Assembly: GCA_024635495.1 (NCBI GenBank)
Contig: JAGXIT010000004.1
Location: 62,001 to 126,000, forward strand
Direction of reading: 5' to 3'
Source of the DNA: Candidatus Saccharimonadota bacterium
GTDB taxonomy: Bacteria > Patescibacteriota > Saccharimonadia > Saccharimonadales > UBA4665
DNA length: 64,000 nucleotides
The notes below the pieces were generated by a model. The model did not search any database. It had not been told where the DNA came from and worked only from the letters and a program-made list of their open reading frames with translations. Shown in pieces: positions 7,860 to 34,447 of this stretch (the first letter of the stretch is position 1; each line of letters opens with the position of its first letter). The translations under genes and the position numbers were made by a program.

Positions 7860-8345
7860 ATGAAAAATGAAGGTTATAAAAAAGGCAGCAAGAATAACCG
7901 TATGTCTCGGGGGGAAATTGCTCGAAACGTGGCAATAGTAGCTGCGGGGATATTGGCAATAAGACTATTTGCCGGTCAGCCAGATAGTACTATCACAACC
8001 GAACGCGAGCCTTTCGGTAATGACATGTTCCTTTTTACTACTTCGGTAGAGCCGGGGTTGTCATTGTTACCCGCCAAAAATAAGTCGAGGATTTGTGTAT
8101 ATGGTGAAATGCCATTCCTTGGGTCAAATGATGGGTACTCTGAAGACGCAAGTTATCTTGCAAAACGCCTCGCTGTCGATGCGACACAGTCAAACCTGAC
8201 ATATATATCTGAGCACCTTAGTGCACGAAGCGGGCAAGACATGTCTGAATTAACGCTGTTAGATCCCGTGGTGGTTGAGCGGGTTTGCTCGATTAACGAC
8301 GGCTCTGAAATAACTTTACAAATAGAAAATAACATTGACAAATAA
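7860..8345 (+). CDS. Hypothetical membrane-anchored protein
   Basis: ATG 7860 preceded by GGAG; TM near N-terminus; overlaps the previous gene's vicinity. Confidence 0.55.
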   Translation: MKNEGYKKGSKNNRMSRGEIARNVAIVAAGILAIRLFAGQPDSTITTEREPFGNDMFLFTTSVEPGLSLLPAKNKSRICVYGEMPFLGSNDGYSEDASYLAKRLAVDATQSNLTYISEHLSARSGQDMSELTLLDPVVVERVCSINDGSEITLQIENNIDK

Positions 8346-8363
8346 GCATAAAAGGAATATAAT
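8335..8363 (+). promoter_or_regulatory. Perfect consensus promoter TTGACA-17-TATAAT overlapping the 3' end of the upstream ORF
   Basis: -35 8335-8340, -10 8358-8363, ATG at 8373. Confidence 0.75.
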
Positions 8364-8372
8364 ACACACATT

Positions 8373-8855
8373 ATGTCAGAAAAGCATACCCAACCAATTG
8401 CACACAAAGCACCCCGAACTTTTAAGGGTGATGTGCGCAGAGCAAAAGAAACACTTTCTAGTACGAGGGGAGCGGTAGCTCTTCTTGGTTCTTTGGCTTT
8501 AGTCGCTGGTTTTGCAAATCATGAGTTGCACGAAAATGCTGAGGCTCATAATCGTAACGAAGCTCTGACTGAACTTTTTTCTAGCAAACAGGCGATTCAA
8601 GAGAACTACGACGAAGAGACAGGTGCTGTAATGTTCACTTACGGTGGTGAAACTGTCGAAATCCCAATTGGTTCTGTTCACGCAGGCCAAGGCGACACTA
8701 TATACGCACTAGCGGGTGAAGCCGTTCAAGATGAGAATAGCGCTTTGTCGTTTGATCAGACAAAGGACGCCTTTAAGGCGCAGAATGGTGACACAACAGT
8801 AATTCACCCCAGCGACCAGTTCCTATTTCCCGTCGAACCGAATCAGGATCAGTAA
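8373..8855 (+). CDS. Hypothetical membrane-anchored protein, possibly a degenerate LysM-like C-terminus
   Basis: Single TM; GDTIYALAGEAV...NGDTTVIHPSDQFLFPV is weakly LysM-like. Confidence 0.5.
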   Translation: MSEKHTQPIAHKAPRTFKGDVRRAKETLSSTRGAVALLGSLALVAGFANHELHENAEAHNRNEALTELFSSKQAIQENYDEETGAVMFTYGGETVEIPIGSVHAGQGDTIYALAGEAVQDENSALSFDQTKDAFKAQNGDTTVIHPSDQFLFPVEPNQDQ

Positions 8856-24236: not shown

Positions 24237-25643
24237 TTACTTCTGCCTTGCTCGATTTTTTATGTTTTTGCGCTGGATGCCGCTGCGCTCTGGCTTGGTT
24301 GGGCTATTGCCATGCTTGTGGCGGTCAGCCTTTTCGATGAACCAGAATTGTACAGCTGTACCTTCGAAGTCGAATTTGTAGCGAAGCTCACGCTCCATGA
24401 ATCGTTTGTAGCTCCAGTGGAGGAACTTTGTGTGCGAACCGAACACCTTGAAGGCTGGTATCGGGTTGTCGTCTTCCTGAACCATGTAATTGAGCTTTGG
24501 TGCACGGTTTTTGAGCCCGGCTGGTGGGTGCTTGGCTATGACGCTGCCGAGCCAAACATTGAGTGTGCGGGTGGTGATACGGGTCTTGCGGCGTTCCGCG
24601 ATCTGCAAGACTAGATCAAATAACTTAGAGACGTTCTGACCAGTGACACTACTGGTGAAAATCAGTGGCGCCCAAGGTACAAAATCAAAAATGTGTGCAA
24701 TCTCTGGTGCGAGTGAATCTCTGGTATATGCATCTTTGCCTTCGACAGAATCCCATTTGCTGACGACAAGTACGAGGCCCTTGCCCGCTTCCTTAACCAT
24801 GCCAGCGATTTTTTGGTCGAGACCAGTATTCATCTCATTTACATCCATTAGCAAGAAACACACATCGGCTTGTTCGATAGCCGCGAGGCTTCGTATGACG
24901 CTAAAGTGCTCGATGCCCACACCGATTTTGCCAGGGCGTCTGATACCGGCAGTATCCATAATCTCAAGCTCACGACCTCTGTAGCGGACAACTGCACGAT
25001 TGATGTCCCTTGTGGTGCCGGCGCGGTCTGCGACGATGGCTTGCTGTTTCTTCGCTAGGGAGTTGAATAGCGCGCTTTTGCCAACATTTGGGCGGCCTAG
25101 GAGCGCGACACGGAGACGATCGTTATCTTCTATCTCTGAGGCTTGCGGAATATGTGTGATGAGGCTATCGAGTAGCTCGTCGACGCCCCTGCGCTGGGTG
25201 GTGCTGGTCGGGAAGATGGCGCTGATGCCGAGTCGTTTGAAGTCATCGAGGTCGCTGCCTCGGGCTCTATCTACCTTGTTGAGGATTAAGAATACAGGCT
25301 TTTTGCTCTTAAGTGCGATGCGGGCGATGCGGCGGTCTTCTTCATTGATGGCGACGTTCGCCTCGACCACAACCCAGATGATATCGGCACTATCTGCTGC
25401 CTGCGTGATTTGCTCTTGGATAGTAAACTCGAAGTCATCGGCCGCATCCTTCATACCAGCGGTATCGATGAGCCAGAATTGGTGCTCGTGCCACTGTGCC
25501 TTTGATGCAATACTGTCACGTGTCGTACCGGCCTCGCGTGCGACGATGGCTTCGCGGCGTTCGAGGATAGCATTAAAAAGGCTGCTTTTTCCCACATTAG
25601 CACGCCCGACAATTGCGACGATCGGTAGTTTTTTACTAATCAT
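24237..25643 (-). CDS. der: GTPase Der (EngA)
   Basis: Two GTPase domains: GRANVGKSSLFNAI and GRPNVGKSALFNSL; C-terminal KH-like domain. Confidence 0.95.
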   Translation of the reverse strand: MISKKLPIVAIVGRANVGKSSLFNAILERREAIVAREAGTTRDSIASKAQWHEHQFWLIDTAGMKDAADDFEFTIQEQITQAADSADIIWVVVEANVAINEEDRRIARIALKSKKPVFLILNKVDRARGSDLDDFKRLGISAIFPTSTTQRRGVDELLDSLITHIPQASEIEDNDRLRVALLGRPNVGKSALFNSLAKKQQAIVADRAGTTRDINRAVVRYRGRELEIMDTAGIRRPGKIGVGIEHFSVIRSLAAIEQADVCFLLMDVNEMNTGLDQKIAGMVKEAGKGLVLVVSKWDSVEGKDAYTRDSLAPEIAHIFDFVPWAPLIFTSSVTGQNVSKLFDLVLQIAERRKTRITTRTLNVWLGSVIAKHPPAGLKNRAPKLNYMVQEDDNPIPAFKVFGSHTKFLHWSYKRFMERELRYKFDFEGTAVQFWFIEKADRHKHGNSPTKPERSGIQRKNIKNRARQK

Positions 25644-25730
25644 TTGTTGTCATTATAACAGATATGAACACAAAATGACACCCCTAGAAGGCCTCTGAAT
25701 TGCGCGTAGGGATTATTGGCGATTATGGAT

Positions 25731-26399
25731 TTAAGTAGTAGTCACAGACTTGGTTTTACCTAAAGCAAGTGTGTTGAGCGAGTATGGACCGAAGGTTGTA
25801 CGGTTGAGCTCTGGGACACCGTAGCCGAGGGCAGAAAACGTGCGGCGTATCTGTCGATTACGGCCTTCTCGCATCGTGACACGGATACGTGAGCGGCGGG
25901 GATTCAGTATTTCAATCTGGAATGTACTGTTGCCGTCTTCGAGCATGACGCCATGGTCAGATATCATCTGTTGGTGCAGTGGCTCTAGCGGCTGGCTGAG
26001 TCTTGCCTCGTACACTTTAACCTTTTGGTATTTCGGGTGCGTTAGCTCGTTGGCAAGGTCACCATCGTCTGTCAAAAGAAGCAGACCTGAAGAAAACTTG
26101 TCGAGTCTTCCGACTGGTTGCAGGCGCTCATACGCTTTTGGCAAGATGTCATAAATTGTTTCACTGCCCTGCCCATCCCTGGAGCAAACATAGCCGACAG
26201 GCTTATTAAACATAATAGTCGTATGATTCATGACAGGCCGTACGCGAACATCATCTAGTAATACGATGTCTGTATCCCCTACGTCAGCTCCCGGTCCCGG
26301 AACATTGTCATTGATAGTTACACGACCATTGGCTATAGCTTCGTCGGCTGCCCGACGACTAAGGGGTGTGCTAGCTGCGATGTATTTGTTGATTCTCAC
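25731..26399 (-). CDS. RsuA/RluB-family pseudouridine synthase
   Basis: S4-like N-term, PVGRLDKFSSGLLLLTDDGDL, EGRNRQIRRTFSALG. Confidence 0.9.
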   Translation of the reverse strand: MRINKYIAASTPLSRRAADEAIANGRVTINDNVPGPGADVGDTDIVLLDDVRVRPVMNHTTIMFNKPVGYVCSRDGQGSETIYDILPKAYERLQPVGRLDKFSSGLLLLTDDGDLANELTHPKYQKVKVYEARLSQPLEPLHQQMISDHGVMLEDGNSTFQIEILNPRRSRIRVTMREGRNRQIRRTFSALGYGVPELNRTTFGPYSLNTLALGKTKSVTTT

Positions 26400-26423
26400 G
26401 GTTTAAGCGTACACCAAATGGGC

Positions 26424-27887
26424 CTAGAGAGCGATGCTATTTGGATCGACGCCCGATCCTGTTTTTTGCTCGGCTTGTGGTTGCTGTGGTTGTTCTGGCT
26501 GTTGTGCTACATCTCCAACTTCTGGTGCTGGAGCCTCGGTACCCGCTGTTGCTTCTTCCCTGGCGAGTAATTCATCGAGGTTTGGCCTGGTATTTTCGCC
26601 ACTGATTGGCTGAATTACTTTTTTGCCCGAGACTTGCTGAAACTCATTATCTGGTGTCGTTGTCTCTGGGCTCGTTGGAGCCCCTGGTGTGGGCGGTGGT
26701 GTGACTGACTCAGCTGGTGTGGGTGGAACAGTCTCGGCTGCTACGGGCGCAGGTGGCATGGAGACGGGCTCGCTAGTGTTTACTGCCGGGCCATCGTTTG
26801 GTGGCATCTGAGGGGTAATGATCTGCGGTTCAGTAGGACTGCTAGCAGGCGTTTCTGGCATTTCGGGTGCGGGGGTCTCTGCAAGCGCTGGGTCACTATC
26901 CGGAGCTGGCTTTTGGCTCGGTGGCAATGCTGGCTCTGGCGGTGCATTGACTGCTTGGGTCAAATCTTTCACTGCTTCGTTTATGAGGTTTTCTTGATTT
27001 GTGGATACCGTAGATTCTGGGTTAGCAGATGGTACTGGTTGAGTTGTCGTTTCCTGAGAAGTAGGGTCTGCTGGTTCGACTGGAGCCGTATTCGCAAAGG
27101 TGTTAATCTGGTCTTCAACCGTCGCTTCCTCTGAGGCCATAGTTTGAGCCTCTGGAGCGACGATCACTGGTTCGGTGGGTGCTTCTGCCGGTGCTGCTGG
27201 CTCAACTGGAGTAGGCTCTGGTGCTTCTGGGGCTGGTGTTTCAGCTACAGGCATCTCTGGGGTGGCTAAAGCTTCTTGTGGAGCGGGCGCTTCGACTGTT
27301 TCAGCTGGAGTATCTACGCTTGGCGTGCTGGCGATTTGTGTTTCTGGTGCGGTCTCTGGCGCTGGCGTTACTTCGGCTGGCGCTGGCACAACTTCTGGCA
27401 TGCTTGACTCGGGCGCAGCTGGCGTAGCAACAACTGCTTGTGGCTCTTCGGCTGGTGTTGTCGCTTCTACGCTGGCAGTTTCCGGCGCTTCAGGTGTTGC
27501 GGGTGTCTCTGTGGCTGCCCCTTCGCCTAGAAGTTCCTTGGCGGCATTGACGATATCCTCGAGTGTTACCTGTGATTTTACGAGGTATTTATTTGCACCA
27601 AGCTTGTCAGCTCTAGCTTGATCATCAGACTGGCCGAGAGCGGTCAGCATAATGACCTTTATATCTCGAAGCTCATCGGTATTTCGTAAGATATCCAGCA
27701 TCTCAAAGCCACTAATCCGTGGCATCATTACATCCGAAATTACGAGATCTGGTTTATTTTGCTTCGCAACAACGAGGGCTTCCTCGCCGTTCTGGGCTGT
27801 CACTATATCGTAGCCTTCGGCAGCCAGACGGGCTTCATATATCTCTCGGAGGTTGTTGTCGTCTTCTACAAGGAGTATTTTTGCCAC
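26424..27887 (-). CDS. Response regulator with ~350-aa P/A/E/T-rich C-terminal tail
   Basis: Receiver domain KILLVEDDNNLREIYEARL..DLVISDVMMPRISGFEML..; then low-complexity tail, no DNA-binding output domain seen. Confidence 0.85.
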   Translation of the reverse strand: MAKILLVEDDNNLREIYEARLAAEGYDIVTAQNGEEALVVAKQNKPDLVISDVMMPRISGFEMLDILRNTDELRDIKVIMLTALGQSDDQARADKLGANKYLVKSQVTLEDIVNAAKELLGEGAATETPATPEAPETASVEATTPAEEPQAVVATPAAPESSMPEVVPAPAEVTPAPETAPETQIASTPSVDTPAETVEAPAPQEALATPEMPVAETPAPEAPEPTPVEPAAPAEAPTEPVIVAPEAQTMASEEATVEDQINTFANTAPVEPADPTSQETTTQPVPSANPESTVSTNQENLINEAVKDLTQAVNAPPEPALPPSQKPAPDSDPALAETPAPEMPETPASSPTEPQIITPQMPPNDGPAVNTSEPVSMPPAPVAAETVPPTPAESVTPPPTPGAPTSPETTTPDNEFQQVSGKKVIQPISGENTRPNLDELLAREEATAGTEAPAPEVGDVAQQPEQPQQPQAEQKTGSGVDPNSIAL

Positions 27888-27939
27888 TTTTGTTACGCCT
27901 TTTCTTGCGTATTACGCTTATGTTTATAGATGTAGTATA

Positions 27940-29322
27940 TCATGCTGTTGCTCCAGGTTGTGTGGTGGGTGTTACGAGGTTTTCTGGTTTTGCGGCAGTT
28001 GTGTTTGCGCTGCCAGTTACCTGGGCGTTTGACTCGGCTGCCATAAGTTGTTCGGCGCGCTGCAAGCTTAAACGGGGTAGGTTTATATAAAAGGTACTTC
28101 CTTTACCCACTTCGCTCTCTACCCAGATACGCCCCTTATATAACTCAACAATCTTTCGACAGATAAATAGGCCAAGACCGGTACCGCCGATGGTACGGGT
28201 GGCGCTATTGTCTACTCGGTAGAACTTCTGAAACAAATGAGGTAAATCTTCGGCAGGAATACCCTGACCGGTGTCCCGAACATACACCTGTACTACGCCA
28301 TCATTGCCGGTAAGTCCGAGACTAACCTTGCCCTCAGCGGTGTATTTACAAGCATTGTCAAAGATATTTGTGACAACTTCACGAACCCTGTCAGCATCTA
28401 CATTGACATAGTAGAGAGGGCGAACAACCTTGTTGCCTTCAGTAGAAGTTGCGCTATGGCTTGCATCTTTTATCTCACTATTACCGAAGAGAAACTCGGT
28501 AAATAGACCTTTCTTCTCCGCAGAAAAACGTAGATCTTCTGCAAGTTGTTCTATAAATGAGCCCATCTCGACAACGCTTGGGTGGCTAACCAGGCGTCCG
28601 TCTTCTGCTTTTGCGCTCGTGAGGAGATCTTGGAAGAGTTGGCCAAGATGCTGTGTGCTCGAATGGGCTTTTTCTAAGTATCCCTTCGCGCGGCCATCGA
28701 TGGTCGCGACTTTGTCATTTAGAGCTAAACTTAGGTACCCTTCTATTGCCGCAACGGGGGTACGCATCTCATGGCTTGCGGTGCTAATGAACTCAGCTCG
28801 CTGATTCTCTTGGGCTCTCTCTTCGCTCACATCACGAAAGACAGCGACAAGCCCCGTAGTGTGTTCTGCTGAATCAGCTAGTGGCGACACACTGAAGCTA
28901 GTAGAAATGCTTGTGCCGGATTTGATGAGCATGTTTGCACTATCGTTTCTGGTCTGCTTGCCAGAGCTAAAAACCTTGGCAATAGGAGTTTCCTCTGCGG
29001 GTAGCTCCTCACCCTTTGTATCTGTAAATTTGAGTACTGAGCGCCAATCGAGACCTTCAGCCTCGTTCCTCGCCCAACCAGTGGTCGTGACAGCTCCTTG
29101 ATTGAAATGACGAATGATTTGTTGATCATCAATCAGCACGACGCCGTCTTGAATGGCACCAAGTATGATGGCTGATTTTTCCTTCTCATTTTGCAGGCTG
29201 CTCGCAAGGCGATTAGTGCTATTGGCACCCTTGTTGGCTTTACGTTTTTTTGCCAATAGAATAACAACCGCTACAAGTACCAGTAAAACTATCCCACCAC
29301 CGATAATAAAGATTTGTTGCAT
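27940..29322 (-). CDS. PAS-containing sensor histidine kinase
   Basis: TM, PAS, STASHEMRTPVAAIEGYL (H box), NIFDNACKYTAEG, GGTGLGLFICRKIVE. Confidence 0.9.
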   Translation of the reverse strand: MQQIFIIGGGIVLLVLVAVVILLAKKRKANKGANSTNRLASSLQNEKEKSAIILGAIQDGVVLIDDQQIIRHFNQGAVTTTGWARNEAEGLDWRSVLKFTDTKGEELPAEETPIAKVFSSGKQTRNDSANMLIKSGTSISTSFSVSPLADSAEHTTGLVAVFRDVSEERAQENQRAEFISTASHEMRTPVAAIEGYLSLALNDKVATIDGRAKGYLEKAHSSTQHLGQLFQDLLTSAKAEDGRLVSHPSVVEMGSFIEQLAEDLRFSAEKKGLFTEFLFGNSEIKDASHSATSTEGNKVVRPLYYVNVDADRVREVVTNIFDNACKYTAEGKVSLGLTGNDGVVQVYVRDTGQGIPAEDLPHLFQKFYRVDNSATRTIGGTGLGLFICRKIVELYKGRIWVESEVGKGSTFYINLPRLSLQRAEQLMAAESNAQVTGSANTTAAKPENLVTPTTQPGATA

Positions 29323-29376
29323 ATACTAAACGCTTATGTATAGTATCTGTTTTTTGCCTGTTTTATGCAAGCGTCA

Positions 29377-30231
29377 CTAGAGGTTTTGTATGAGCAGGAT
29401 GAGCGTAAGCGCGAAACCGGTGAGGTAGTTTAGCCACAGGAAGCGCCGCCAAGCAGCGTTTATTGCCGCAGAGGTTCTATCGGTAATAGACAGAAAGGGG
29501 GTGAGATTCACTGCATACAGTAAGCCAAAAAGAGCGATTATCACAGTTGGCCCACCCTGGCTTACGATGATACCTGTGGTGATTAAATAAAATATACCTG
29601 ATAGCCACAACGTTGCGCGGGCGCCAATGTATGTCGCAATAGAGTGTATATGCGCTTTTCTGTCGGGTAGGATATCTTGGATCGCACCAAACGCGTGAGA
29701 GGCTATCCCCCACAAACCAAATGCTACAGTGTATTGCAGCCATGCGTCTGGCCAGCTAATAAGACTAAAGCCAAATAGCATCGGCCCAACGAAATGCAGA
29801 CTGCTGGTGAGCGAGTCAAGACCTGGGCGTTCCTTGAACCGTAGCTTTGGTACTGAATATGCGAGCGCAAGGGCCACGACCCCTAAAAGTAGCAGAGCTG
29901 AAGCCACATTACCCGCAAGCAGTAGGTATATTCCAAGCGGCAGATTTACATACCAGGTTGCTCGGATGATAGTCGGATGAAATTTGCGCTGCTCACGCAT
30001 CCCTTCAATACCGCCCTTTCGTGGGTTTTGTATGTCTGATTCGTAATCAAATACGTCATTTATGCCGTACATCATGAGGTTGTATGGAATCAAAAAATAG
30101 AGCGTGCCAATGATGAACGTGATGTCTATCCGGCCGCCAGAGGCGAGATAGGCTGCTGCAAATGGGAATGCCGTGTTTGGCCACGAGATTGGCCGTGAAA
30201 TCATGAGCAAACGAGTAATTGTGCTACGCAT
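29377..30231 (-). CDS. crtEb: UbiA-family prenyltransferase, likely lycopene elongase (CrtEb-like)
   Basis: YGINDVFDYESDIQNPRKGG motif; position at the end of the crt operon; start at MRSTITRLLMISRP. Confidence 0.75.
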   Translation of the reverse strand: MRSTITRLLMISRPISWPNTAFPFAAAYLASGGRIDITFIIGTLYFLIPYNLMMYGINDVFDYESDIQNPRKGGIEGMREQRKFHPTIIRATWYVNLPLGIYLLLAGNVASALLLLGVVALALAYSVPKLRFKERPGLDSLTSSLHFVGPMLFGFSLISWPDAWLQYTVAFGLWGIASHAFGAIQDILPDRKAHIHSIATYIGARATLWLSGIFYLITTGIIVSQGGPTVIIALFGLLYAVNLTPFLSITDRTSAAINAAWRRFLWLNYLTGFALTLILLIQNL

Positions 30232-30520
30232 GTGTTTTCTCCTTGCCAAAATGCTTCCAAACTACGGGAGTTATGAACACGGCCAAGATCGGGTAGCAAA
30301 AATCTTCAACTGGGGCTGCCCAGATACGTAAGCCGAGAATATAAGAAGAGTTGTAGTCTATGATGCTTTGGAGAACCAGTATAGAGTCAAATATGAGTGT
30401 CAACAGTAGGACCAGCCCGAGTGCAATTATATGCGCACGAGACAGTTTAAGGCTGCGTCGTCGAGAAATCAGCAGTGCGGTCGCCATGACCACGATATTT
30501 AGGAGGATGTATCGGGCCAT
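30224..30520 (-). CDS. crtYf: Heterodimeric lycopene cyclase subunit (CrtYf-like)
   Basis: MARYILLNIVVMATALL..FDSILVLQSIIDYNSSYILGLRIWAAPVEDFCYPILAVFITPVVW; start 30520. Confidence 0.7.
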   Translation of the reverse strand: MARYILLNIVVMATALLISRRRSLKLSRAHIIALGLVLLLTLIFDSILVLQSIIDYNSSYILGLRIWAAPVEDFCYPILAVFITPVVWKHFGKEKTHA

Positions 30521-30819
30521 CTTCGCTCCATTGTTCTTATCAGCAGCAGTGTTGTGTAGGAAAGTAATACGATGAAGAAGAGCTCTTCGATTGGAAATTC
30601 GGGTGCGAGCCGTACCGGCAGTGTGTATTGGCTGTCGCCGTGTAGGAATATACCGAGCGAAATCCCCAGTAAATCCCAAAATACAAAGATGCCCGACATG
30701 ACCGCCAGAGTTTTGAGGGTTCGTTTGCAATCATACCAAACCGCCAGCTTATATCGCCAATCCAGTACTGCCAGACCGCTAAGAGCCATAAGTAAACTCG
30801 CAAGATACACGAACTGCAT
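30499..30819 (-). CDS. crtYe: Heterodimeric lycopene cyclase subunit (CrtYe-like)
   Basis: FWDLLGISLGIFLHGDSQYTLPVRLAPEFPIEELFFIVLLSYTTLLL. Confidence 0.75.
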   Translation of the reverse strand: MQFVYLASLLMALSGLAVLDWRYKLAVWYDCKRTLKTLAVMSGIFVFWDLLGISLGIFLHGDSQYTLPVRLAPEFPIEELFFIVLLSYTTLLLIRTMERRWPDTSS

Positions 30820-30821
30820 GC

Positions 30822-32357
30822 TTACGTACTCGCCTTCTCATCAAATTTGATGTGCGAGATGGGGCCATTGCTTTTATCATCGACGATGCGTTTGTAAACC
30901 AGCTCGGCACTGATCAGGCACATCGGCATCCCAACACCGGGTATTGTGGAGCCACCAACGTAGTAGAGGTTCTTGACCTTCTTGCTGTAGTTTTGAGTGC
31001 GGAAAATAGCAGTTTGCTTAAGCGTGTGACCCGGACCAAGCATGCTGTACTGCCACGATTGAAATTGTGCTTTGAAGTCGGCTGGTCCCATGGTGTGTTT
31101 GTAGACGATTCTTGAAGTCAGGTCGGTTATGCCGGCCATTCGTTCTATCTGCGAAATAGTCTGTGACTCGAGGTTTTTTTGCATTTTGGCAGTGAGTGTG
31201 ACCCCGGCGGGCAATGGTACTAAAACCACCAGAGCCTCGTGTCCTTTAGGTGCAAGCTCCGGTTCTGTCTCGGTTGTCTTACTGATGTATAAAGACGCAG
31301 GGTTCGGGATGGTCTTGGTCTCGTAAATTGCCTCAAAGTTTTCTCTCCAGCTGTCGACGAACAGCAAATCGTGATGAGCGAGCTCAGGCAATTTACCCTT
31401 CACGCCCAGGTAGAGCAGTAATGCGCTCGGTCCACTGACTTTCTTGTCCCAGTACGCCTCTGGATAACTTTGCTGTGCTGACGGCAACATGGCAGTTTCA
31501 GTGTGGTGCAAATCTGCATTTGATATGACTAGGTCGGCAGAAGCGCTTTTTCCAGAAGCAAGCTGAATGCCGGTAACGTGACCTGCCTGCGTGATAATTT
31601 TCTTTACAGTACTACTGTAGTGATACGTAACTCCTGCTTCCTCGCTGAGCTTGGCCATTTTTTCGATAAGCTTGTATATCCCCCCACGCGGATAGTAGAC
31701 TCCCTGGTCGAAATCGAGCGCACCCATCAGGGTGTAGAGGGCGGGAGTTTTGTACGGCGAGGCGCCCAAAAATACACTGCTATATTCGAGTATCATTTTG
31801 AGATGCGGGTGCGTGAAATAGTGACTGACTTCTTGATCAAACGAGCGCCCGAGTAGTCTCAAGAACTTCGGGGCATTACGCAGCACTTCGAGACTAAAAA
31901 TTCCGCGAATTGATTGAAAGTTCGTGTAGAGAAAATGCTTCATCGATAGCTTGTACAGCAACGATGCCTGCGCGGTGTAGCGCCTGAGCTGTTTGCCCGC
32001 CCCTGGCTCAGTTATCTCAAATTTTGCTTGGTTTTCAACCTGGTCTGCGCCAATAGTTATCGGGGCGCCATTCTCAAAAAATACTTTATAGGCAGGGTCA
32101 AGACGAACGACATCAAGTTGAGCTGCTGTGGTCGTGTTACAGAGCGCAAAAAAATGTTCAAATACTTCGGGCATGAGATACCACGATGGACCAGTATCGA
32201 AGCTAAATCCTTCAGCTTGATGTAGGCCAGCACGACCGCCTGGTTTCGCATGCTGTTCGTATAGCTCTACTTCATAACCAGCCTTCGAAAGATATGTTGC
32301 GGTGGCGATGCCGCCTATGCCGGCACCGATGACGATCGCCTTTTTGGGTGTACTCAC
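30822..32357 (-). CDS. crtI: Phytoene desaturase
   Basis: KAIVIGAGIGGIATATYLSKAGYEVELYEQHAKPGGRAG; C-term NLYYVGGSTIPGVGMPMCLISAELV. Confidence 0.92.
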   Translation of the reverse strand: MSTPKKAIVIGAGIGGIATATYLSKAGYEVELYEQHAKPGGRAGLHQAEGFSFDTGPSWYLMPEVFEHFFALCNTTTAAQLDVVRLDPAYKVFFENGAPITIGADQVENQAKFEITEPGAGKQLRRYTAQASLLYKLSMKHFLYTNFQSIRGIFSLEVLRNAPKFLRLLGRSFDQEVSHYFTHPHLKMILEYSSVFLGASPYKTPALYTLMGALDFDQGVYYPRGGIYKLIEKMAKLSEEAGVTYHYSSTVKKIITQAGHVTGIQLASGKSASADLVISNADLHHTETAMLPSAQQSYPEAYWDKKVSGPSALLLYLGVKGKLPELAHHDLLFVDSWRENFEAIYETKTIPNPASLYISKTTETEPELAPKGHEALVVLVPLPAGVTLTAKMQKNLESQTISQIERMAGITDLTSRIVYKHTMGPADFKAQFQSWQYSMLGPGHTLKQTAIFRTQNYSKKVKNLYYVGGSTIPGVGMPMCLISAELVYKRIVDDKSNGPISHIKFDEKAST

Positions 32358-33178
32358 AGCCTGCCTCCTGACACTAGGCTACGAATAGCTAGATATACTT
32401 TGACACTCGAAGTTATCCGAATGCGTGATTTTAGGATTTCCTCTGCTGGGGTTGCGCTAAGTTTTTTTGTTAGTGCCATGTACATCGTGTAACTTGCTGC
32501 AACTGCTCTGCGCGTACTTTTCGGCAAAATTTGTATGGCTGTTTTCGCGTTGAGTAAATCGTTCTTGATATCGGCGATGATACTATCTCTGTCTGTATTT
32601 TGGAAATCATCAATTGAAATATTCGGGAAATACGCTCGACCCAATCTCTCGTAATCATCGGCGAGGTCACGGAGGAAGTTTATCTTTTGATAGGCAGCGC
32701 CGAGTGCTCGCGCACCCCGCTCAGTCTCTTTGTATAGTGAAGTATCTCCATCGCAAAATACCTTCAGACACATCAGGCCGATAACTTCAGCTGAGCCGTA
32801 AATATAAGCCTCGTAGTCGTCTGCGGTATATGCATTGCCGATATCCATACGCATGCTCGCGAAAAATGGAGCAATGAGCGATTTTTCTATGCCGTACTGT
32901 TGGGCTGTTTTTGCAAATGCGTGCACGATTGGGTTCGTGCTATAGCCGTCCGTAAGCGCGCGATATGTTTCTGACTCAAGTGTATCGAGCAGCTTGGCTT
33001 GATTGTTGCCTCGGTAGGTATCGACGATTTCGTCTGCGATTCGAACCAGTCCATAAATAGCGTAAATGTGTGGCTGTATATTTTTATCAAACAGGCGACT
33101 ACTCAAGCTGAAAGATGACGAGTAACGAATAGTGAGCGTACGACTTAGCTCTCTACTAACCTCGTCATATAGTTCCAT
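32354..33178 (-). CDS. crtB: Phytoene/squalene synthase family protein
   Basis: YSSSFSLSSRLF..IYGLVRIADEIVDT, GAAYQKINFLRDLADDYERLGRAYFP; start taken at 33178. Confidence 0.9.
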   Translation of the reverse strand: MELYDEVSRELSRTLTIRYSSSFSLSSRLFDKNIQPHIYAIYGLVRIADEIVDTYRGNNQAKLLDTLESETYRALTDGYSTNPIVHAFAKTAQQYGIEKSLIAPFFASMRMDIGNAYTADDYEAYIYGSAEVIGLMCLKVFCDGDTSLYKETERGARALGAAYQKINFLRDLADDYERLGRAYFPNISIDDFQNTDRDSIIADIKNDLLNAKTAIQILPKSTRRAVAASYTMYMALTKKLSATPAEEILKSRIRITSSVKVYLAIRSLVSGGRL

Positions 33179-33179
33179 G

Positions 33180-34262
33180 CTATGAACTCCGCTTTGTGCA
33201 TTTTGTGATAAAGGTATCGAAGGCAGCTTTAACCTGCGCTTCAAGGCGTAGATCTTCCATAGTGGCTCGTGCGGCTTGCTCAAGCTCGTGTATTTTTTCT
33301 TCTACGATAGACCTTGCCCCCGACTCTATTAGGGCGGATTTTGCGGCACCCTGTTCTGCCGGAGTGGCTGTGGAGACGCCAAAAGCGTTCGCGAAAATTT
33401 TCTGTTGAGATTCATCTGCAACCGTATGAAATTGCTCAACTAAGTAGGTGTACTTGCCTTCTCGCAGGTCACTCACGGCACTTTTACCGAGTTCTGCCTC
33501 GTCACCAAACATACCCAGTAAATCATCCTGGAGTTGAAATGCTATACCGAGTGACAATCCAAACTTCTGTAGATGTTCGATAGCCTCCTGTGACGCTCCA
33601 GCTAGCGTCGCGCCAATTGCCAGTGGCCCACAAAAAGAATATGATGCTGTTTTTTCTTGAGCAATGAGCAGTGGTGATTCACGTGGCTCCATAAACGCAG
33701 ACTCGGTATCTATGAGCTCACCTCCAGCTACGCGAAATATTGCTTCGTCGAGAAGCATCTGAGCGCTCGTAATTTTAGACCTAGATGCTGTAGTTCGTGA
33801 GAGTAAATCGTATGCTCCGGCGATTAGGAGGTCACCAGCCAGTATCGCTGCACTGTCTGCGAAATGTTGACGTTCGATATTGTCTGCGATATGCGGTGCG
33901 TACGCATCATATTGCTGTCCGCTTACGTTTCTAATGCCATATCGTATGTAGTCACGATCGATAATATCGTCGTGAACGAGAAGTGCTAAGTGCAACAATT
34001 CAACGGCAGATGCAGCATGTTTCCATGTCGACTCGTCTGCTCTGCCGGGATAGGCACTATACGCCAGATACACCATGTACGAACGGAAGCGTTTGCCTCC
34101 AGCGATTGCTAAGTTTTCTATAGATCGCCAGAGCGTAGCGTAGGCTGGCGCTATGGTGTTTGCCGCTAATTTTTTTGTACCAATATATTCTTTGAGCTCT
34201 TGTGTGACGAGCGTACGGACATCATCTATATCGAGTAGCTCACCACCGGAGGTTTTCTGCAT
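33180..34262 (-). CDS. crtE: Geranylgeranyl diphosphate synthase (polyprenyl synthetase)
   Basis: GGKRFRSYMVYLAY, LLHLALLVHDDIIDRD, FQLQDDLLGMFG; start 34262. Confidence 0.88.
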   Translation of the reverse strand: MQKTSGGELLDIDDVRTLVTQELKEYIGTKKLAANTIAPAYATLWRSIENLAIAGGKRFRSYMVYLAYSAYPGRADESTWKHAASAVELLHLALLVHDDIIDRDYIRYGIRNVSGQQYDAYAPHIADNIERQHFADSAAILAGDLLIAGAYDLLSRTTASRSKITSAQMLLDEAIFRVAGGELIDTESAFMEPRESPLLIAQEKTASYSFCGPLAIGATLAGASQEAIEHLQKFGLSLGIAFQLQDDLLGMFGDEAELGKSAVSDLREGKYTYLVEQFHTVADESQQKIFANAFGVSTATPAEQGAAKSALIESGARSIVEEKIHELEQAARATMEDLRLEAQVKAAFDTFITKCTKRSS

Positions 34263-34370
34263 CCTATAAGTATATATTACTGAGGTCAATTCACAATCTA
34301 TTCAGTTGCTCACCCTATGAATACCCCAAAGAATATGCTACGATAATGCGGCTATTTCATAGCAAAACGT

Positions 34371-34447
34371 GGCCCCGTCGTCTAGTGGTTCAGGACATCT
34401 GGTTCTCATCCAGAAGATCGCGGGTTCGAATCCCGCCGGGGTCACCA
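34371..34447 (+). tRNA. tRNA-Glu(CTC), CCA encoded
   Basis: Cloverleaf GGCCCCG...; anticodon loop TTCTCAT; GCGGG-TTCGAAT-CCCGC T-arm. Confidence 0.92.

Follow-up and report, generated by a model that had tools for sequence, protein, structure and literature searches.

In Corynebacterium glutamicum, decaprenoxanthin synthesis is encoded by the operon crtE-cg0722-crtBIYeYfEb (PMC3598387). The MarR-type regulator CrtR is encoded beside the operon in C. glutamicum and in many Actinobacteria, as an accessory rather than a defining component (PMC5401885). Among Patescibacteria, bacterioruberin-type genes (lyeJ, crtD and cruF) have been described in Lake Baikal lineages that include a Saccharibacterium (PMC9948471). 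Saccharibacteria bearing a type-1 rhodopsin depend on the retinal of other organisms, which is thought to be imported in finished form (PMC9296517).

We analyzed a stretch of 64,000 nucleotides, hereafter the window, that corresponds to C5:62001-126000 of a genome of 820,174 bases in 5 contigs (99.78% complete, 0.38% contaminated). This genome is that of a Saccharibacterium, a very small bacterium that depends on a host, as an earlier sequence-only reading of the window had supposed. Saccharibacteria are known for missing biosynthesis, and what the window contains is an ordinary kind of operon, for a C50 carotenoid, in an unexpected organism. Open reading frames together with Pfam and NCBIfam profiles delineate six intact minus-strand genes, crtE-B-I-Ye-Yf-Eb, whose frames are all open and unbroken and which are separated from their neighbours by 1-2 bp or overlap them by 4, 22 and 8 bp. 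Together they occupy exactly positions 29377-34262, in agreement by coordinates, families and motifs with the six tightly packed crt genes that had first been noticed there:

34269..34296, minus strand: sigma-70-like promoter TTGTGA-N16-TATACT immediately preceding the ATG of crtE, compatible with a possible leaderless start (consensus scan, 9/12 matches; with 12 against 7.8 for shuffled sequence, the scan stays close to background)
33180..34262, minus strand: crtE, geranylgeranyl diphosphate synthase, 360 aa, at the head of the conserved gene order (PF00348, polyprenyl_synt, 2.9e-48; DDIID motif)
32354..33178, minus strand: crtB, phytoene synthase, 274 aa (PF00494, SQS_PSY, 1.6e-42; DEIVD and DLADD motifs)
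30822..32357, minus strand: crtI, phytoene desaturase, 511 aa (TIGR02734, crtI_fam, 534 bits for a cut-off of 238; overlaps crtB by 4 bp)
30499..30819, minus strand: crtYe-type small lycopene/C50 cyclase subunit, 106 aa (TIGR03462, 48.0 bits for a cut-off of 39.4; PEFPIEE)
30224..30520, minus strand: crtYf-type small cyclase subunit, 98 aa (PF18916, 45 bits for a cut-off of 27; TIGR03462, 47.9 bits; APVED)
29377..30231, minus strand: crtEb, UbiA-type lycopene elongase, 284 aa (PF01040, 3e-25; NF009608, PRK13105, 360 bits for a cut-off of 217; NDVFDYESD and QDILPD)

For the lycopene cyclase domain TIGR03462, both small proteins score above the cut-off. Residues P76, E78 and E79 of the CrtYe PE.P.EE motif are invariant in 13 aligned sequences, as are P70, E72 and D73 of CrtYf and the metal-binding motifs NDxxDxxxD and DxxxD of CrtEb among their respective aligned relatives. 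A phmmer search of CrtEb against the PDB returned no match. The suspected kinship of the UbiA gene with lycopene elongases is borne out by its NF009608 score and its membership in the same prenyltransferase family as actinobacterial CrtEb; in the CrtEb tree it groups with the latter, away from haloarchaeal and LyeJ-like sequences, and is therefore of the CrtEb type and not LyeJ.

The locus shares with the C. glutamicum operon the six enzymes, their relative order and strand, a heterodimeric cyclase and a CrtEb above the NF009608 cut-off, a profile that also matches the C. glutamicum control genome in an output that does not give which control passed the cut-off. The proposed correspondence with the gene order of the actinobacterial C50 cluster holds for most of the sampled Actinobacteria loci. 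On the other hand, the window lacks a cg0722-like gene in the crtE-crtB interval and has no crtR-like gene next to the operon, whose upstream neighbour is a tRNA gene, and no regulator is common to the neighbourhoods compared. The carrier also differs, being a Saccharibacterium without any detected marker of the MEP or mevalonate pathway and with an operon in a separate clade of the tree. The bacterioruberin-type genes of Lake Baikal likewise represent a C50 elongase in the same phylum, but they belong to an acyclic LyeJ/CruF route, whereas the window contains a cyclic route in one operon; they are reported to form no operon in Baikalibacteria and to have cruF apart in the Saccharibacterium (PMC9948471), and LyeJ-like loci branch far from CrtEb in our tree. 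In the literature searched, we found bacterioruberin-type genes already reported by that study and no report of a cyclic C50 operon in Saccharibacteria. In three Patescibacteria outside the class (L247, L249 and L250), crtE, crtB and crtI lie on one strand and a LyeJ-like UbiA gene on the opposite strand, an arrangement that is perhaps of the bacterioruberin type.

We consider it quite likely that the operon in the window is functional and directs the synthesis of a cyclic C50 carotenoid of the decaprenoxanthin/sarcinaxanthin type, which would be built from scavenged C5 units, and that it belongs to an old, apparently mobile Saccharibacterial module. The enzyme activities, the product, the scavenging and the role in the membrane are what we infer from sequence, which does not tell epsilon, gamma and beta rings apart. 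CrtE would condense C5 units into GGPP (C20), two of which would be joined by CrtB to form phytoene, and the FAD enzyme CrtI would desaturate phytoene to lycopene. The genome encodes a COX1-family heme-copper oxidase subunit (482 bits), which makes the use of oxygen plausible. CrtEb would then add one C5 unit onto each end of lycopene to give a C50, flavuxanthin-like intermediate, a CrtYe/CrtYf heterodimer would close the end rings, and the pigment would span the membrane as a stabiliser and antioxidant.

The light-linked function envisaged in the sequence-only reading fared unevenly. A search for type-1 rhodopsin that evidently works, since it matches 9 of 149 relatives, came back empty for this genome, and a regex scan of 816,665 bases for short motifs of Blh and of retinal-forming carotenoid oxygenases gave no convincing match. 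The genome does encode, outside the window, a heliorhodopsin of 256 aa with an SFVAK motif:

G000 C5:149616-150341 (L069:3610-4377, minus strand): heliorhodopsin (PF18761, 303 bits)

This gene raises the alternative of a C40 product, such as beta-carotene serving as a retinal source for heliorhodopsin, with CrtEb doing something else. A cluster of C40 type does exist in a genome of the same genus (G003, L118:5350-11318), where crtI, crtB, a fused 246 aa lycopene cyclase and crtE are followed by a DNA photolyase gene. Nonetheless, CrtEb lies beside cyclase genes in the 30 genomes examined, all of which were found via CrtEb, and it keeps its metal-binding motifs; together with the lack of Blh or carotenoid oxygenase motifs, at the level of the regex scan, this makes a C40 product unlikely.

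The isoprenoid precursor genes to which the sequence-only reading had pointed were not found. Profile searches of the genome detected no IspH (matched in ten control genomes), no HMG-CoA reductase (five controls), no GHMP kinase, a family that includes IspE and the mevalonate-pathway kinases (all fourteen controls), and no type-1 IPP isomerase, Idi-1 (five controls, and 14 of 99 genomes over the cut-off). None of 40 relatives has IspH or HMG-CoA reductase over the cut-off. UppS is present, and blastp with CrtE revealed no second CrtE-like protein in the 816,665 bases, out of 820,174, that the motif scans and blastp covered; type-2 Idi and other salvage enzymes were covered at motif level at most. 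With neither known route to IPP and DMAPP turning up in the genome, scavenging is the most likely source of the C5 substrates, probably from the host or neighbouring cells, through an import for which no transporter or salvage kinase was identified. Scavenging as such is not a new idea: the IPP pathway is missing from a soil Saccharibacterium for which uptake was considered likely (PMC6031116), and freshwater CPR bacteria other than Gracilibacteria are reported to make only C10-C20 isoprenoids (PMC9166423). The part for which we found no report is a complete C50 pathway on top of it. The retinal-dependent Saccharibacteria mentioned above (PMC9296517) are comparable epibionts in relying on an isoprenoid product or precursor of others, but here the genome encodes the pigment pathway itself, misses the C5 units and has no type-1 rhodopsin. 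Idi-1 genes were observed elsewhere: one (133 bits) directly beside a crt operon in G090 (C67:7415-7891, with CrtEb at 7949-8797), and another near a LyeJ-like cluster in G119 (C9:23256-23738).

The operon lies at a clean junction between native genes, at a site that can be compared with that of a crt-less congener, G005:

34371..34447, plus strand: tRNA-Glu(CTC), which bounds the insertion site on the opposite side (ARAGORN)
29372..34308 (about), no strand: segment present here and missing from the same site in G005; the window's flanks match positions 149-206 and those from 210 on in the G005 tRNA-Glu/kinase fragment
27940..29322, minus strand: histidine kinase beside the operon, a family-wide native gene outside the pathway (HisKA, HATPase; 77% identical in G005; match in 89/89 family genomes)

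Contamination or a chimeric assembly could be suspected because a genome this reduced would not usually carry crt genes, yet both native flanks are continuous with a single intergenic region of G005, the GC content of the operon is like that of the rest of the window, and the operon also occurs in the single-contig genomes G236, G210 and G214. As far as sequence allows, this explanation is refuted, and the probability that we leave to it is negligible. The tRNA-Glu gene adjoins the kinase gene with no crt gene between them in nine inspected relatives (G005, G001, G006, G004, G050, G014, G025, G064 and G071), two of which, G064 and G071, carry crt operons elsewhere in the genome. The empty site fits either a gain by the lineage of the window or a loss by the others.

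Composition does not single out the operon as foreign, a possibility for which GC and codon usage had been put forward as indicators. The GC content of its genes (0.455-0.494) matches that of 23 other genes of the window (0.490, sd 0.019), and their codon adaptation index (0.699-0.788) is mostly within the range of the other window genes (0.731-0.844), only CrtYe falling below it, slightly. Any acquisition would hence be old or from a genome of like composition. Many genomes keep unbroken crt reading frames whose sequences are about 50% identical, with dN/dS ratios of 0.07, 0.10, 0.18 and 0.09 in the four gene comparisons that have an estimable dS, dS being saturated elsewhere.

A profile search of 393 genomes of Saccharimonadales placed CrtEb over the family cut-off in 30. 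All six genes, in the order seen in the window, were found in 24 of these; in four more (G045, G009, G153 and G137) the order agrees but the operon is cut or split by contig ends, and in G123 and G164 the crt genes are rearranged. That one six-gene order recurs in 24 genomes of the Saccharimonadales and in the majority of the Actinobacteria loci sampled goes far beyond chance. The operon is therefore widespread and old in the order, neither isolated nor a recent acquisition. Across the Saccharibacterial neighbourhoods as a whole, nothing beyond the six crt genes is widely shared and the flanks differ in nearly every genome, so that the operon resembles a self-contained cassette that sits at different sites. 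In a sample of the phylum, the sole CrtEb match over the cut-off outside the order came from G687, a member of the same class in another order, where a single frame of 684 aa joins CrtEb to a family 2 glycosyltransferase (L246:6597-8651). The fused gene, which suggests a glycosylated C50 pigment, adjoins crtYf and crtYe, and crtI there looks fragmented.

These observations bear on the host-to-epibiont transfer proposed in the sequence-only reading, which the phylogeny does not sustain. Direct acquisition from an actinobacterial host would account for the shared gene order and the CrtEb identity of about 50% with Micrococcales, and Actinobacteria are known hosts of Saccharibacteria (PMC9296517). 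Window and Actinobacteria do carry the same CrtEb family. However, in the CrtEb tree and in the six-gene concatenation the sampled Actinobacteria (the best 80 of 548 confirmed relatives) form one clade that contains no Saccharibacterial sequence, and the window is not nested in it. Its operon falls instead in a Saccharibacteria-only clade of 21 rows (support 100), otherwise made up of family f35 and named Saccharibacteria or Patescibacteria, and a reduced, careful tree agrees, with a Saccharibacteria-only clade of 10 rows (100/100). The operon is found, besides, in several families of the order, and on these grounds its direct acquisition by this epibiont from an actinobacterial host is very unlikely. 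The nearest source of the operon, judging from the tree, is another Saccharibacterium and not a sampled actinobacterial host.

Transfer between Saccharibacteria is probable because the six operons of the window's own family, f1, are split over three separate places in the tree, that of the window being with f35. Purely vertical descent from the order's ancestor, combined with many losses and no transfer into the lineage of the window, would suit operons that are old and diverged. It would also suit G214 (L106), a genome of another family, in which the kinase, regulator, RluB and Der genes that follow the operon in the window (24237-34447) also come immediately downstream of it, an exception to the variable flanks; the two operons are nevertheless not sisters in the operon tree. 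Given the scattering of the f1 operons, the absence of CrtEb from all six congeners (0/6) and flanks that differ in nearly every genome, we regard strictly vertical descent as fairly improbable, and retain transfer between Saccharibacteria as the preferred reading.

When trees were rooted with Patescibacterial and haloarchaeal outgroups, the Actinobacteria nested among Saccharibacterial sequences. For CrtI, monophyly of the Saccharibacterial C50 sequences was rejected (p-AU 5.7e-10), a result that depends on the rearranged loci L110 and L111, which are possibly mosaics; once these two are left out, the tree favours a Saccharibacterial CrtI clade (88). The six-gene concatenation rejected Saccharibacterial monophyly more weakly (p-AU 0.028). 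With outgroups confined to Patescibacteria and haloarchaea and limited actinobacterial sampling, these trees make epibiont-to-host transfer, in which the actinobacterial C50 operon would descend from Saccharibacteria or from Patescibacteria more widely, a conceivable but doubtful scenario. Two C50 operons occur under other names, one from Chloroflexi bacterium PMG_070 (L141) that groups with Saccharibacteria and one from Sporosarcina beigongshangi (L191) that groups with Actinobacteria; misbinning or contamination of the contigs is the probable explanation for both.

A complete, conserved and apparently mobile pathway for a membrane pigment, in a cell whose genome showed neither known route to its building blocks, makes the flow of isoprenoid precursors from host to epibiont directly testable, and bears on how Saccharibacteria cells build and protect their membranes.
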